Positions 3,078 through 20,481 of a stretch of DNA of 64,000 nt are shown piece by piece. The position numbers and the translations under genes are program-made. Origin of the DNA: Candidatus Copromonas faecavium (nom. illeg.) (GTDB lineage: Bacteria > Bacillota > Clostridia > Lachnospirales > Lachnospiraceae); assembly GCA_018712915.1 (NCBI GenBank), contig DVGC01000025.1, positions 29,344 through 93,343 on the forward strand, in the 5' to 3' direction. How positions within the stretch are numbered: position 1 is the stretch's first letter; every line of letters starts with the position of its first letter. The notes under the pieces were generated by a model. That model did no database searches. It worked only from the letters and a program-made list of their open reading frames with translations, and was not told where the DNA came from.

Positions 3078-3106
3078 TTGACTTATTGACTTTGGCGTGT
3101 TAAGAT
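3078..3106 (+). promoter_or_regulatory. Promoter of rpoBC: TTGACT-17 bp-TAAGAT
   Basis: TTGACT at 3078-3083 and TAAGAT at 3101-3106 with exactly 17 bp between. This places the TSS downstream of the ORF-track start at 3105. Confidence 0.75.
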
Positions 3107-3200
3107 GAGAAATGCACTATTGTGGTATCTTGTGCCTTATGGTACCATTATGCCCAAAAACAGGATTGAAATAGAGAAAGAAAACAGGGGTGAAACGTCA

Positions 3201-6200
3201 ATGGAGAAAAGCAGAATACGTCCGGTTCCGGCCGGAAAAGGCGTAAGAATGAGCTACTCAAGACAGAAGGAAGTTCTTGAGATGCCCAACCTGATCGAAA
3301 TCCAGAAGGATTCCTATCAGTGGTTCCTGGACGAAGGCCTGAAGGAGGTCTTTGAGGATATCTCCCCAATCGCGGACTTTGCCGGTCATCTGAGCCTGGA
3401 GTTTGTGGACTTCACGTTATGCCGGGATGACATTAAGTATACGATTGAGGAGTGCAAAGAGCGGGATGCTACTTACGCCGCGCCTTTGAAAGTAAAGGTA
3501 AGACTCTGCAACAAAGATAAAGACGAAATCAATGAACACGAGATTTTCATGGGTGATCTGCCGTTGATGACCGATACGGGTTCCTTCGTGATTAATGGCG
3601 CGGAACGTGTTATTGTAAGCCAGCTGGTTCGCTCCCCTGGAATTTATTATGGAATCGACCGTGACAAAATCGGTAAAGAGCTTTTTTCCTGCACCGTAAT
3701 CCCCAATCGCGGCGCATGGCTGGAGTATGAAACGGATTCCAACGACGTCTTTTATGTCCGTGTGGACCGTACAAGAAAGGTGCCCGTAACCGTTCTGGTG
3801 CGTGCCCTCGGCTATGGAACCAATGCGGAGATTACCGAGCTGTTCGGTGAGGAACCGAAGATCACGGCCTGCTTCGGCAAGGATCCTTCTGATAACTATC
3901 AGGACGGCCTGCTGGAGCTGTATAAAAAGATCCGTCCCGGTGAGCCGCTTTCCGTGGACAGTGCGGAGAGCCTTTTAAACAGCATGTTCTTCGACCCCAG
4001 AAGATACGACCTGGCAAAGGTGGGACGGTATAAATTCAATAAGAAGCTGCACTTTAAAAACCGCCTGACCGGACAGATTGCGGCTGAAGATGTGGTAGAC
4101 GTTACGACCGGAGAGATCCTGGCAGAGGCCGGAAAGGCCATGACTAAGGAGCAGGCCACAGCCATTCAGAACGCTGCAATTCCTTATGTGTGGGTTCAGA
4201 CAGAGGAAAGACGGGTTAAGGTTCTTTCCAATATGATGGTGGATCTGGCTCATTATGTGACCTTTGATCCGGAGGAAGCCGGCGTAACGGAGATGGTATT
4301 TTATCCGGCCCTTGCGGAGCTTCTGGAGAAGGCGGACGGTCTGTCTGAGGAAGAATTAAAGGCAGAGATTCACCGCCATATCCACGACCTGATTCCGAAG
4401 CACATTACGAAGGAAGATATCCTTGCTTCCATTAACTATAATATGCATCTGGAGTACGGAATCGGAACAAAGGATGATATCGATCATCTTGGAAACAGAA
4501 GAATCCGTGCCGTGGGCGAACTGCTGCAGAACCAGTACCGCATCGGTCTTTCCAGAATGGAGCGTGTGGTAAGAGAGCGGATGACCACCCAGGATATGGA
4601 TGGAATTACGCCGCAGTCCTTAATCAACATCAAGCCGGTGACGGCGGCGGTGAAGGAGTTCTTCGGTAGCTCTCAGCTGTCCCAGTTCATGGACCAGAAC
4701 AACCCGCTGTCTGAGCTGACCCATAAGAGACGTCTTTCCGCCCTGGGACCGGGAGGTCTTTCCAGAGACCGTGCCGGATTCGAGGTTCGAGATGTTCATT
4801 ATACGCACTACGGCAGAATGTGCCCCATCGAGACGCCTGAAGGTCCCAACATCGGTCTGATCAACTCTCTGGCGACCTATGCGAGAGTCAACCAGTACGG
4901 CTTTGTGGAAGCGCCCTACCGTGTCATCGACAAGACCGATCCGGCCAACCCCAGAGTCACCGATGAGGTCATCTATCTGACGGCCGATGAGGAAGATAAT
5001 TACGTAGTGGCTCAGGCCAATGAGCCGCTGGACGAGGAAGGCCACTTCATTCACAACAACATTTCCGGACGGTTCCGCGAGGAAACCTCTTCCTTCCAGA
5101 AGCGTTCGGTGGATTTGATGGACGTATCCCCGAAGATGGTATTCTCCGTGGCGACTTCCATGATTCCCTTCCTGGAGAACGACGACGCCAACCGTGCCCT
5201 GATGGGTTCCAACATGCAGCGTCAGGCCGTTCCCCTTCTGACAACGGAAGCTCCTGTTGTAGGAACGGGTATTGAAGGAAAGGCGGCCGTGGACTCCGGC
5301 GTCTGCGTTCTTGCGAAGAATGCCGGAGTGGTGGAGCGTTCCGCTTCCAATGAGATTATTATTAAGCGTGATTCGGACGGCAACCGGGATGTGTACCGTC
5401 TGACCAAGTTTAAGAGAAGCAACCAGAGCAACTGCTATAACCAGAAGCCCATCGTCTACAAAGGTGACCATGTGGAAAAGGGCGAGGTAATTGCAGACGG
5501 CCCGTCCACCAAGAACGGTGAGATCGCCCTGGGAAAGAACCCCTTAATCGGCTTCATGACCTGGGAGGGATACAACTACGAGGATGCGGTTCTGTTAAGC
5601 GAGAAGCTGGTGCAGGACGATGTTTATACCTCTGTCCATATCGAGGAATATGAGGCAGAATCCAGAGACACCAAACTGGGACCGGAGGAAATTACAAGAG
5701 ACGTTCCCGGCGTGGGCGAGGATGCCTTAAAGGATCTGGATGAGAGAGGAATCATCCGCATCGGCGCGGAGGTTCGTGCCGGTGATATCCTTGTGGGTAA
5801 GGTAACTCCCAAGGGAGAGACAGAGCTGACTGCCGAGGAGCGGCTGTTAAGAGCTATTTTCGGTGAGAAGGCAAGAGAAGTCCGCGATACTTCCTTAAAG
5901 GTGCCCCACGGCGCTTACGGAATCGTTGTGGATGCGAGAGTATTTACAAGAGAAAACGGCGATGAACTGGCTCCCGGCGTGAACCAGACCGTCCGTATCT
6001 ATATTGCGCAGAAGAGAAAGATTTCCGTGGGCGACAAGATGGCCGGCCGTCACGGAAACAAGGGTGTGGTGTCCCGTGTGCTTCCGGTGGAGGATATGCC
6101 CTTCCTTCCCAACGGACGTCCGCTGGATATCGTGCTGAACCCCCTGGGTGTGCCGTCCCGTATGAATATCGGACAGGTGCTGGAGATTCACTTGAGCCTG

Positions 6201-7076
6201 GCCGCCAAGGCCCTTGGCTTTAATGTATCCACGCCGGTTTTTGACGGTGCGGATGAGAACGACATTCAGGATACGCTGGAGCTGGCCAACGACTATGTAA
6301 ATATGGAATGGGATGCGTTCCAGGAGAAATATAAGGCTCTGGTGAAGCCGGAGGTTATGGAGTATCTGGGAGAGCATCTGGATCATCGTGCGCTCTGGAA
6401 GGGCGTTCCAATCCAGAGAGATGGAAAAGTCCTCTTAAGAGACGGACGGACCGGAGAATACTTCGACAGTCCGACCACCATCGGTCACATGCATTACTTA
6501 AAGCTTCACCATCTGGTAGATGATAAGATTCATGCCCGTTCCACCGGCCCATATGCCCTGGTAACCCAGCAGCCCTTAGGCGGCAAGGCCCAGTTCGGCG
6601 GACAGCGGTTCGGTGAGATGGAGGTTTGGGCTCTGGAGGCTTATGGTGCATCCTACACACTGCAGGAGATCCTGACTGTGAAGTCCGACGATGTGGTGGG
6701 ACGTGTAAAGACCTATGAGGCCATTATCAAGGGAGAGAATATTCCGGAGCCGGGTATCCCCGAGTCCTTCAAGGTACTGCTGAAGGAGCTTCAGTCCCTG
6801 GGACTGGATGTGCGTGTGCTGCGTGACAACGGCGAGGAGGTCGACATGTCTGAGAACATCGACTACTCCGACACCAATTACGATCTGCGCTCCATCATCG
6901 AAGGCGACAGAAGCTACAGCGACAAGGGAGAAAACCTGGGCGATTATGGCTTCCAGAAGCAGGAGTTCAAAGGCGAAGAGCTTGTGGACGTGGAGGATGA
7001 TGATTATACGGAGGATTCTTCGGACGACGATTATATCAACGATGAATACACCGAACATGACGCCGATGAGATTTAA
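3201..7076 (+). CDS. rpoB: DNA-directed RNA polymerase subunit beta
   Basis: [51 protein letters not shown]...; [54 protein letters not shown]. Start moved from 3105 to 3201 on homology and promoter position. Confidence 0.98.
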
Positions 7077-16081: not shown

Positions 16082-17200
16082 ATGCTTCATCCTTATGAAA
16101 ATCATTCTATAGAAGATATGGCTGGCGAACCGGAGGTTCAGGGATGTTCCTGCGGATGGCAGAGGTCCTGCTGCCAGCGTTACTGCTGTTATGGCCCGAC
16201 AGGTCCCACCGGCCCGATGGGTCCCATGGGACCGAGAGGAATTACCGGGGCGACAGGGGCTACCGGCCCAATGGGTCCCATGGGATTCCCGGGAGTGACA
16301 GGAGCCACCGGAGCAACGGGAGCCACCGGGGCTACAGGACCGACCGGCCCGGCAGGTGCAGGACTGGAAAGTGTTTCTGAATTCGTTGCCGGAACACCTT
16401 ATCCGAGAGGGGCCATGGTTTATTATAATGGGGCTCTTTATCAGGTCAATCAGGATAATCCTTCCGGTATTCCCGGAATGTCACCGGATTTTAACCTGGT
16501 GACCGTAACGGGAGCGACAGGAGCCACTGGAGCCACCGGAGCAGCGGGTGCCACAGGAGCTACGGGAGCAACAGGAGCCACTGGAGCCACAGGTCCTACC
16601 GGAGCAACAGGCGCAACGGGAGCAGACGGAGCTGCTGGCGCTGTCGGTCCTGCCGGTGCAGATGGCGCAACGGGAGCGACAGGAGCCACCGGTCCTACGG
16701 GCCCGGAAGGAGCCGCAGGAGCAGCGGGTGCCACCGGAGCAACAGGCGCAACGGGAGCGACAGGGGCTACTGGTCCTACCGGAGCAGCGCCGCCGTTAAA
16801 TGCATTGTATGCGACTCAAACCGGCAGCCAGAGCCCGGTATCTGACGGCGATCCGCTGACCTTTGATACGACTCAGCTTTCGGAAGGAACTGCCATTACC
16901 CATACGGGAGGCAGCAGCGACATTTCCATTACAGAAAATGGTGTGTATGAAATTTCCTATTCTACAGTAGGAACGGATTCCACCGGTGCAGGTACTACCA
17001 GCGTTCAGCTTCGGGAAGACGGAACAGAAATTCCGGGAACCACCGCATCAGCCAATGTGGCCAATGCCAATGACCTGGCATCCCTGTCCGCAAGCGCCAT
17101 CATCAGCGTAACATCCGCTCCGGTAACGATTACGTTAAATATGATTGGTACCAATCAGGCTTTTACCAATACGGCAGTATCCGTGAAGAAACTGGATTAA
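16082..17200 (+). CDS. Collagen-like (Gly-X-Thr/Pro) surface protein with BclA-like C-terminal domain
   Basis: N-terminal Cys-rich cap [16 protein letters not shown]; two collagen-like blocks ([11 protein letters not shown]..., GATGATGAT...) separated by a non-collagenous [26 protein letters not shown] module; C-terminal beta-rich domain. Confidence 0.85.
16508..16790 (+). repeat. Degenerate 9-bp-periodic collagen-like coding repeat (second block)
   Basis: Repeated ggagccacn/ggagcgaca/ggtcctacc units encoding GAT/GPT triplets. Confidence 0.85.
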
Positions 17201-17247: not shown

Positions 17248-17290
17248 GACCGGGGTCTGGAGAGCTGTTTCTCCGGGCCCCGGCCCTTTT
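17248..17290 (+). terminator. Terminator after the collagen-like gene
   Basis: GGaCCGGGGtctGGAGAgctgttTCTCCgggCCCCGGcCCTTTT. Confidence 0.6.
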
Positions 17291-17360: not shown

Positions 17361-19034
17361 TCAGACATCCTGCTTTAACTGCTCCAGGGCATAAAGGGCT
17401 GCTCCGGTGGCCCCGACAATTTCCGGCTCCTCGCAGATATAGAGTCCGGCCTGCAGCTTTTCTTCCACAGCCCGTACCACGCCCGGGTTTTTGGCCACGC
17501 CTCCGGTCATCATAAATTCCGGCTCCAGGCCGACGCGTTTTAATAAGGAAAAGGCTTTTCCTGCGATGGCATGGCAGACACCGTTGGCGATATCTGCTTT
17601 TTCTTTGTTGTTGGCAATCAGAGAGATCACCTCAGATTCGGCGAAAACGGAGCACATGCTGGTGATTTCGATGTGTTCTGTCGAGGTCAGGGCAATGGCT
17701 CCCAGTTCGCTGATGTCCACTTCCAGCGTGCGGGCGATCATCTCAAGAAAACGGCCTGTACCGGCAGCACATTTGTCATTCATCACAAAGTCATGAACCT
17801 CACCGTTTTCGTCCAGGCTGATGGCCTTGCTGTCCTGGCCGCCGATGTCGAGGATTGTGCGGACCCTGGGATTGAAATAGTGTGCTCCTTTTCCGTGACA
17901 GCTGATTTCAGTAACATTTTCATCCGCAAAGGCAATGCTGACACGTCCGTATCCGGTAGACACAATTCGGGCCAGGTCTTTTCTTTCCAGCTTTGCTTTC
18001 TGAAGCACATCTGACAGAATCCGCTCTGCACTGTCGCCGGATTTGGCTCCGGTGCGTATCACGGAAGAGGCGATGATCGTTCGGTCCTGATTCATGATAA
18101 CGGCATTGGTTGAAGTGGATCCGCTGTCAATTCCCAGCACATACATGGTTTCAAGTCCCTCCTTATGCATTCTGATGGGTCTGGTTTTCGGCTGCAGTGA
18201 TTCGGCAAAGGCCTCGATTCTTGTCAGCATCTGCCCGTAGCTTTGTCTTGTGTAGTCAGTTTCCAGCTGAAGAACAGGCTTTTTCAGCCAATTTTTCAGC
18301 CAGGCATATTCATAGGAATAATTGTCGCAGAATTGGACGGTATGATACAGGATGCCGTCTACGCTGTCTGCGTACCGGCGGATCAGCTCGTCCCGGTTGG
18401 ACGCCTGCTCCATCCGCATACAGGGAAACTGGCTTAAAAGTCTGCGGGCATAACCGGTCATCACATCGTCTTCTTCCACCAGAATTTTCCGTTCAAGCCC
18501 GGTGCAGGTCAGGTCAAATGCGACCCGGATCTGCTTTTTCTGCAGAATATCCTTCATTTCCCTGCTGGCCCTTGCACCGAGGATTCCTATGGTGACGTTC
18601 TTTTTCTGCTCCTCTTTCTTCTGGCCGCTCTTTTTCTTTTTCAGATATTCCTGGAAGCGCCCGGGATTGAATTTTTTTCCGGAAAAAGTTTCGTATGCGT
18701 TTACCATGGCCTCAATTCTCTGGCGGTAAAGTGCGATTCCGGCATCTTTTGTAATTCTTGGAATATCCAGAATGTAAATGAATTTGTCAGGATATTCTTC
18801 TTTTAAAACGTCAAAAAGCCTGCGGATGCTGTCGCAGCAGGTGGTGAGAATGACGCCCTCGTAATCCGAGCGGATGACTTCTTCCAGAACGCCTTTGACA
18901 AAGCTGCAGATATTGGGATGCATCCGGGTATCTGCCTGACTGAAGCTTGTGACGTCTGGCTCGATCCGTTCCATGGAAACGCCCATGGATTCAAATAATT
19001 CTACCGGTGTGTATTTACAAATATAGCCTAGCAT
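17361..19034 (-). CDS. Fusion: 2-hydroxyacyl-CoA dehydratase-like (HGD-D/HgdB) module + ATP-dependent activator (HgdC-type)
   Basis: N-terminal ~296 aa: MLGYICKYTPVELFESMGV...TTCCDSIRRLF...VQFCDNYSYEYAWLKNWL...TDYTRQSYGQMLTRIEAFAE. C-terminal module: MYVLGIDSGSTSTNAVIM...ILDIGGQDSKAISLDENG...NDKCAAGTGRFLE...ITSMCSVFAESEVISL (both cluster-bridging Cys positions). Confidence 0.85.
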   Translation of the reverse strand: MLGYICKYTPVELFESMGVSMERIEPDVTSFSQADTRMHPNICSFVKGVLEEVIRSDYEGVILTTCCDSIRRLFDVLKEEYPDKFIYILDIPRITKDAGIALYRQRIEAMVNAYETFSGKKFNPGRFQEYLKKKKSGQKKEEQKKNVTIGILGARASREMKDILQKKQIRVAFDLTCTGLERKILVEEDDVMTGYARRLLSQFPCMRMEQASNRDELIRRYADSVDGILYHTVQFCDNYSYEYAWLKNWLKKPVLQLETDYTRQSYGQMLTRIEAFAESLQPKTRPIRMHKEGLETMYVLGIDSGSTSTNAVIMNQDRTIIASSVIRTGAKSGDSAERILSDVLQKAKLERKDLARIVSTGYGRVSIAFADENVTEISCHGKGAHYFNPRVRTILDIGGQDSKAISLDENGEVHDFVMNDKCAAGTGRFLEMIARTLEVDISELGAIALTSTEHIEITSMCSVFAESEVISLIANNKEKADIANGVCHAIAGKAFSLLKRVGLEPEFMMTGGVAKNPGVVRAVEEKLQAGLYICEEPEIVGATGAALYALEQLKQDV

Positions 19035-20314
19035 GTTTCCTCCTGTCCTGCTTTTGCTTCGTCCAGCATTTCCAGAAATGCTTCCAGACGGGTTTTCATC
19101 TGGCCGTCATGGCTGTTTCGCTTGTCGATTCCATCTCCGTCCAGAATCAGCATGGGCAGGTCTTTTTCCTGCAGACGTTCTTTCAGCAGAATGCTGCCGC
19201 CGGAAGACTGCTTGCAGCCCCAGTGGCAGAATTGAATGACGGCGTCCGGATGGAGCTCATCCGTCAGACGGCTGATGATTTCGGCTTTATGGGAATAGGA
19301 ACCATTATAAAGATTATGAATGAGTTTTCGTGCCAGAGAATGGAAGGGGCGGCTTGCGTCCAGTTCCTCAGCGGAATCCAGGGAAATATCGCTGGCGATA
19401 ATCTGGTATTTTTCGTTGGCGTTGAAATATTTCTGAAGACTCTCCTGGTAGAAGGGCAGCAGGTGAACCCATAGAATCTTTTTGCCTTTAAATTCCGGAT
19501 AAGTCTGAATGTCCTCCACCATGAAACGGACCAGATCCAGAAATTCCTGTGTTCCGATGAGAAGATGCATTCCCATCATAAGGTAAAGGCTGCTGACAAG
19601 CTTTCCAGGATAATAGTGTCTGCTCTGCAGCCGGAAAAATTTCCACAGCTCTTTCCTGGTTTCATTTTCAATCTGAAGGGACTGCTGCAGTTTTTCAATC
19701 CGGAAGGGTTTGTGAAAGACGTTTTCCAACCGGTTCGCCAGTTCCTCCAGCTGTGCGGCCAGGTAATCAACGGAGCCATCATCGGCTTCATAGGGAATAT
19801 CAAGAAGCGTAAACGGAATTCCTCTTTTCTTATCCAGGTAGCGGAAGGTATTGAGGTTTCCATCACAGGAAAGGGATGTGGTAACAGCGTACCTGGGCAG
19901 AGGGACGGCGCCGCTTTCGATGGCTCCGATAAAAGTTTTATGATAGGAACAAAGAGTCGGGGCAATTCCTTCGGTCTGGGCATAGTCGATAAAATAATCT
20001 TCCAGATGGTATCCGCTTAAGAAGCAGGAGAGGCACTCAATGGAGAGCGTGGCGAGCCCGAAAGAACCGATGAGCTCACAGGGAGCAAAAATATTGCCCC
20101 ATACATAACTGTCCCGGTGTGATAACGCATTGGCGACAAAGGACATCATCATGGACTCCAGCCGCTGATATCCCCTGGAAATATCTTTTTCCGGCAAAAA
20201 TTTCAATCGGTATTTGTTGGCCTGGAATCCCAGCAGGATTTTATTCCAGCTCTGCTCGGGATGTTCCGCAGTCTTGTCTTTTACGTATTGGATATACTGT
20301 TCTGCAATACTCAT
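19028..20314 (-). CDS. 2-hydroxyacyl-CoA dehydratase family subunit
   Basis: Start at MSIAEQYIQYVK with GGAGG upstream; FAPCELIGSFGLATLSIECLSCFLSGYHLED; FCHWGCKQSSGGSILLKERLQEKDLPMLILDGDGIDKRN. Stop overlaps the next start (ATGCTAG). Confidence 0.8.
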   Translation of the reverse strand: MSIAEQYIQYVKDKTAEHPEQSWNKILLGFQANKYRLKFLPEKDISRGYQRLESMMMSFVANALSHRDSYVWGNIFAPCELIGSFGLATLSIECLSCFLSGYHLEDYFIDYAQTEGIAPTLCSYHKTFIGAIESGAVPLPRYAVTTSLSCDGNLNTFRYLDKKRGIPFTLLDIPYEADDGSVDYLAAQLEELANRLENVFHKPFRIEKLQQSLQIENETRKELWKFFRLQSRHYYPGKLVSSLYLMMGMHLLIGTQEFLDLVRFMVEDIQTYPEFKGKKILWVHLLPFYQESLQKYFNANEKYQIIASDISLDSAEELDASRPFHSLARKLIHNLYNGSYSHKAEIISRLTDELHPDAVIQFCHWGCKQSSGGSILLKERLQEKDLPMLILDGDGIDKRNSHDGQMKTRLEAFLEMLDEAKAGQEETC

Positions 20315-20481
20315 ATCAGGTCCTCCAAAACAGAACGGATTCAGACAGGACAGCTCCTGCAGAATCCGCAAATCAGGGAATATTCGGTTCATCAGCCCGG
20401 AGGCTGATAAAAACTAAAGAATACTATACTATGTCCGGCTCAAAAAATCCAGGGGGAAAATGAAAAAAATTCAGATATGAA

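Follow-up and report, generated by a model that had tools for sequence, protein, structure and literature searches.

A two-gene operon on the minus strand of the window (the whole 64,000-nucleotide stretch of DNA analyzed here) harbors an ORF that joins a beta-type 2-hydroxyacyl-CoA dehydratase subunit to its activator (activase), and this one gene very probably gives rise to two products, the 62.5-kDa fusion and a free 27.9-kDa activator initiated at an in-frame ATG at the domain junction. A preliminary description of this DNA had proposed this pair of products, and comparative evidence now strongly supports it: the internal start codon is present in 88/88 members of a clade of relatives, its Shine–Dalgarno (SD) sequence is strong and independent of codon phase, and synonymous codon choice around it is biased. 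A plain ORF reading yields one protein, where the evidence says two.

Organization of the dehydratase–activator operon

The operon comprises the fused ORF, an alpha-type partner gene and the following flanking signals.

19034..17361, minus strand: fused ORF, 557 aa (62.5 kDa), with matches to PF06050 (2e-45), PF01869 (5.5e-66) and TIGR00241 (2.5e-83); dehydratase beta-type subunit at residues ~1-281, linker at ~282-296, activase at 297-557
19028..20392, minus strand: partner gene, alpha-type 2-hydroxyacyl-CoA dehydratase subunit of 454 aa with an HGD-D domain (PF06050, E=6e-66)
19039..19044, minus strand: SD AGGAGG serving the fused ORF's own ATG (19034; ACAGGAGGAAACATG), anti-SD energy -9.7 kcal/mol
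17250..17283, plus-strand match in a scan for terminator-like elements: 15-bp hairpin, probable terminator, downstream of the operon and between convergent genes

The alpha-type gene lies 5' of the fused ORF and overlaps its start (ATGCTAG), which places two HGD-D (PF06050) subunit genes side by side; the nearest PDB entry to the alpha-type protein is 3o3m_A, the alpha subunit of HadBC. In the fused ORF, the PF06050 match spans residues 132-280 and corresponds to the C-terminal half of the profile, and the PF01869/TIGR00241 match spans residues 299-549, a complete activase that scores 279 bits on TIGR00241 against a cut-off of 125. No equivalog model matches the dehydratase subunits at its cut-off, and 2-hydroxyacyl-CoA dehydratase activity is a family-level prediction. 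The putative cluster ligands of the beta domain, C43, C66/C67 and C236, do not vary and match the NLC, TTCD and QFCQ motifs of DCCP in the alignment. Three other fusion homologues (L173, L174 and L185, in G555:C3, G642:C1 and G160:C29, respectively) have an interrupted beta domain; in the G642 homologue the beta halves are ~1.2 kb apart, suggesting an insertion. Convergent with the operon is a gene for a collagen-like protein of GXY (mostly GAT) repeats at 16082-17200 on the plus strand, and the hairpin at 17250-17283 between the two is likely a shared terminator.

An internal SD and start codon at the domain junction

The preliminary description had placed a strong SD followed by an in-frame ATG at the dehydratase/activator junction, with the activator beginning there at its canonical N-terminus. 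Both points are confirmed by the features below.

18164-18157, minus strand: internal SD AAGGAGGG, anti-SD energy -11.3 kcal/mol; motif kept in all three codon phases
18146-18144, minus strand: internal in-frame ATG, Met297 (codon 297); a start codon in 88/88 clade members
18147..18191, minus strand: inter-domain linker, predicted unstructured (pLDDT minimum near 281-290, block mean 55)
17361..18146, minus strand: predicted free activator, 261 aa, 27.9 kDa, with a complete HadI-like fold (4EHT, E=1.9e-72)

Read from 18170, the minus strand is ATGCATAAGGAGGGACTTGAAACCATGTATGTGCTGGGAATTGACAGC, with a gap of 11 nt between GGAGG and ATG. The predicted anti-SD energy of this internal site is stronger than that of the fused ORF's own start (-11.3 versus -9.7 kcal/mol), and its RNA (-6.6) is less open than the clade average. 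Since 2/461 internal in-frame ATGs in the large ORFs of the window have an SD at ≤ -11, one such site per window is unsurprising; it is conservation across relatives, not the window alone, that excludes chance. A second strong internal SD (-11.9 kcal/mol) with an in-frame ATG at window position 6846 (plus strand) falls in the ORF at 3105-7076; the local RNA there is structured (-11.5), and that site may be due to chance.

The internal start corresponds to the canonical N-terminus of the activase because residue 1 of HadI from C. difficile (Met1; PDB 4EHT) aligns exactly with Met297. In the AlphaFold model, the beta domain ends in a helix (266-280), residues 281-297 have no secondary structure and the first activase strand begins at 298, such that the seam is modeled as a flexible linker. 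The activase part gives Foldseek TMt values of 0.90-0.94 to 4EHT/1HUX (ASKHA-type fold), and on this model translation from Met297 would give an entire domain. The activase cysteines C422 and C461 do not vary among 41 fusions and align with the cluster-cysteine segments NDKCAAGTGRF and STCTVFAESEV of HadI.

Distribution of the fusion and of the internal start

We collected 134 distinct loci in which both domains are adjacent, in one frame at 133/134. An alpha homologue is present at 131 fused loci, with no locus of sufficient flank lacking one; around the fusion loci no other neighbor is conserved that could point to the substrate. Linker length among relatives ranges from 6 to 35 codons, always a multiple of three with no stop; retention of frame across ~20 linker lengths argues that the full-length fusion is under selection too. 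At one locus (L154, G777:C1:1479321-1480151), the loss of 1 nt from an A-run in the linker splits the frame and leaves a 284-codon open frame; the fusion is intact in L153 of the same genus, and the split, seen in a single-contig assembly, is either real or a homopolymer error.

A start codon occupies the canonical position at 88/134 loci (87 ATG and one GTG), and the sampled members of this group form one clade that includes the window (support 100/100 in a 75-row tree). At the other 46 loci the activase N-terminal residue is never Met; G, K, I, Y and F are among those seen there. Conservation of the SD in orthologues, which the preliminary description had named as a check, holds in the 88-member clade, where the start codon is always kept and the SD is strong in most members, and the internal start site persists across at least 80 gut-bacterial species. 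The same fusion is found in isolates, including Lachnoclostridium An196, Merdimonas faecis, Claveliimonas monacensis and others, and occurs across the Bacillota in many families of the phylum; by sequence comparison, it is ancient. This recurrence across species refutes an assembly or sequencing error that joined two separate genes, for which we see practically no likelihood: the window genome is a 64-contig draft, but the fusion recurs in at least 80 species, isolates among them, and 45/46 intact beta-domain matches below 1e-40 outside that genome lie in frames of at least 539 codons.

SD strength, RNA openness and selection

Over the 88 clade loci, the internal site has a mean anti-SD energy of -8.08 kcal/mol (87.5% at ≤ -7), next to -8.06 kcal/mol (63% at ≤ -7) for the fusion ORFs' own starts; the SD is only modest (-4.3 to -5.7) in ~10% of the clade. 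The corresponding means are -3.44 kcal/mol for 1393 other in-frame ATGs and -3.24 kcal/mol for all in-frame codons, with 8% at ≤ -7 in either set. RNA from -30 to +20 is alike open at the internal site and the ORF start (-3.2 and -4.2), compared with -11.3 at other in-frame ATGs. The SD-to-ATG distance in the clade is mostly 7-8 or 10-11 nt (mode 7, window 11).

For a synonymous null, codons were redrawn by each gene's own usage in 64 linkers thinned to differ at ≥9/36 nt, a step that reduces but does not remove kinship among the sequences; against it, the linkers show a stronger SD (z -6.3) and more open RNA (z +11.0) than expected. The SD core falls in the three codon phases at 57, 25 and 6 loci, encoding, for example, KGD (AAA GGA GAC), KEN (AAG GAG AAT) or RRE (AGG AGA GAA), which indicates selection on nucleotides and not on amino acids only. 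The linkers are purine-rich and the mean SD of the synonymous null is already -6.7, so part of the SD signal derives from the purine-rich linker residues. This feature speaks for an alternative in which the SD-like stretch slows ribosomes or assists folding between the domains, or simply results from a K/E/G/R-rich linker, with Met297 serving a structural role. We regard that explanation as very improbable: when codon order is shuffled instead, the null mean falls to -4.3 and the observed SD stands at z -12.5, other fusions lack an SD and carry G/K/I/Y in place of the Met, the single ATG substitution is GTG, another start codon, and pausing needs no start codon at a fixed spacing. These sequence comparisons support an internal initiation signal that is real and under selection.

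Lineages with a shifted site or no site

At 32/134 loci outside two site-bearing groups, the mean anti-SD energy at the same place is -1.9 (6% at ≤ -6), and the junction, for example KKGYFAGIDSGSTS, usually lacks an SD-preceded start codon; many of these linkers are likewise lysine-rich, yet the SD is weak. Orthologous fusions lacking any SD, which the preliminary description had counted against an internal start, therefore do exist, but in other lineages only (these 32/134), and the window's own clade keeps the SD. Site-less lineages mark where the trait is absent and are no refutation for the window's clade. In the second site-bearing lineage, of 14 loci (L126-L135, L137-L139 and L164), an in-frame ATG precedes the canonical residue by 3, 5 or 6 codons, and its SD is -8.06 and its MFE -2.0; these sites are comparable and would be internal starts that have either shifted or evolved independently.

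Parsimony on the tree requires at least five changes of the yes/no state of the site, and rooting with unfused activases did not settle gain versus loss, given long branches. That uncertainty in gained versus retained, together with the resemblance of the sequence to a gene start, is what speaks for the site as a relic of the activase gene's own prefusion start, now nonfunctional. Such a relic is nonetheless a most improbable account, and a passive scar of a recent fusion, which the preliminary description had offered as its alternative, is rejected: the fusion is old and spans the Bacillota, SD, start codon and open structure persist in 64 diverged linkers against synonymous nulls, and the signal is absent from fusions that belong to neither site-bearing lineage. 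The site may still have originated as a retained start, though not a passive one.

As 32/134 fusions have no site, a free activator is not needed by the enzyme family in general. A dedicated free activase was not found beside site-less fusions, with the fused activase only in 15/16 regions of 12-18 kb; near site-less L199, at a distance of 1.4-3.2 kb, lie two separate activase matches that are weaker (32% and 25%).

Proposed products and their roles

Activases are dimers in which one [4Fe–4S] cluster is held by two cysteines per monomer; hydrolyzing ATP, they transfer electrons to the beta subunit, and both the homodimer and ATP-driven electron transfer are known for HadI (PMC11574389). The preliminary description had invoked this homodimer as the reason for a free activator, a rationale that fits the literature on these relatives (PMC11574389). 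The two-gene operon very probably yields three polypeptides, namely the alpha subunit, the beta-activator fusion (from 19034) and the free activator (from 18146). Ribosomes would recognize the internal SD, which lies in weakly structured linker mRNA, and start translation at ATG297. The free activator would then pair with a second free chain or with a tethered one as the ATP-driven dimer bridged by a [4Fe–4S] cluster, which would bring the activator:dehydratase ratio to more than 1:1 and relieve two fusion chains of the need to pair. By analogy to HadI and HgdC, a free activator that supplies the second half of the dimer, or whole dimers, is plausible. It may serve to tune stoichiometry and not be strictly required, since site-less lineages exist without a dedicated free activase gene in 15/16 regions. 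A more elaborate scheme, about which we are doubtful, has free and tethered activators pairing as an asymmetric dimer whose free arm is exchangeable, with the internal start setting enzyme:activator stoichiometry and such sites having evolved repeatedly, at codons that differ between separate lineages of the fusion.

The free activator might instead come mainly from a short transcript of an internal promoter, translated through the same SD and ATG. In favor are a 9/12 match to a sigma-70-like promoter on the minus strand (18370-18342) and the internal transcription start site of rpn genes (PMC10327210); however, the match is weak (8 in the region versus 4.2 ± 2.2 in shuffles) and its stretch codes for conserved residues, making this route unlikely. 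It is compatible with two products from one gene, with an identical start site.

Two products would change how this orphan radical/redox enzyme is expressed and assayed, as activity could be lacking in a construct with a recoded linker or in one restricted to the long form. Sister lineages that differ in having the internal start offer a clean natural comparison of when a fused partner must also exist free, and a simple comparative screen for variable linkers that hold a start codon, an SD in whichever codon phase and open RNA could find more such genes.

Comparison with known systems

Among the closest known systems are HadI with HadBC, the (R)-2-hydroxyisocaproyl-CoA dehydratase of C. difficile, and HgdC with HgdAB, which share the activase fold, the cluster cysteines and the alpha/beta pair. 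The activator in those systems is a separate protein, whereas here it is fused to beta and has an internal start, and the beta domain is ~281 aa here versus ~375 aa in HadBC/HgdAB. In DCCP:DCCP-R of Carboxydothermus (7YYL), DCCP matches the beta domain and DCCP-R the activase, but activator and reductase are separate, unfused chains. Activase-containing proteins of ~1400 aa also carry the domain in a long frame, often with two activase matches, but their architecture is much longer and their activase is only 30-33% identical to that of the fusion. Open frames of ~1400-1550 codons with one or two activase-like domains occur in almost every genome searched (G000:C32 and C49, for example).

Bacteria and archaea are known to use in-frame internal starts to make a C-terminal partner, as with YscQ-C (PMC4295842), RpnS and Cas11d (PMC10327210) and Cas11b (PMC11899642), and initiation profiling has added others (PMC11005335). 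In Cas8b/Cas11b and Cas10d/Cas11d of type I CRISPR systems, an internal AUG in a large fused ORF lets its C-terminal part be produced separately as well, which supplies additional small subunits (PMC11899642; PMC10327210). These are CRISPR effector subunits rather than a redox enzyme with an ATP-dependent activator and bear no sequence relation to the fusion, but Cas8b/Cas11b is the nearest parallel, in that a subunit is both fused and made free. The Cas11-type subunit is a separate gene in other systems. In type III secretion, the C-terminal fragment of SctQ/YscQ-C made from an internal start assembles with the full-length protein (PMC4295842); this is a structural ring protein, however, and not a fusion of two enzymes known separately. 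RpnL/RpnS resembles the dehydratase–activator fusion in having an in-frame internal ribosome-binding site and start at a domain boundary, but differs in that the short form inhibits the long form and an internal promoter is present (PMC10327210). We found no description of this dehydratase–activator fusion in the open-access papers searched. The internal-start device itself is known, and the dehydratase–activator system is a new place for it.
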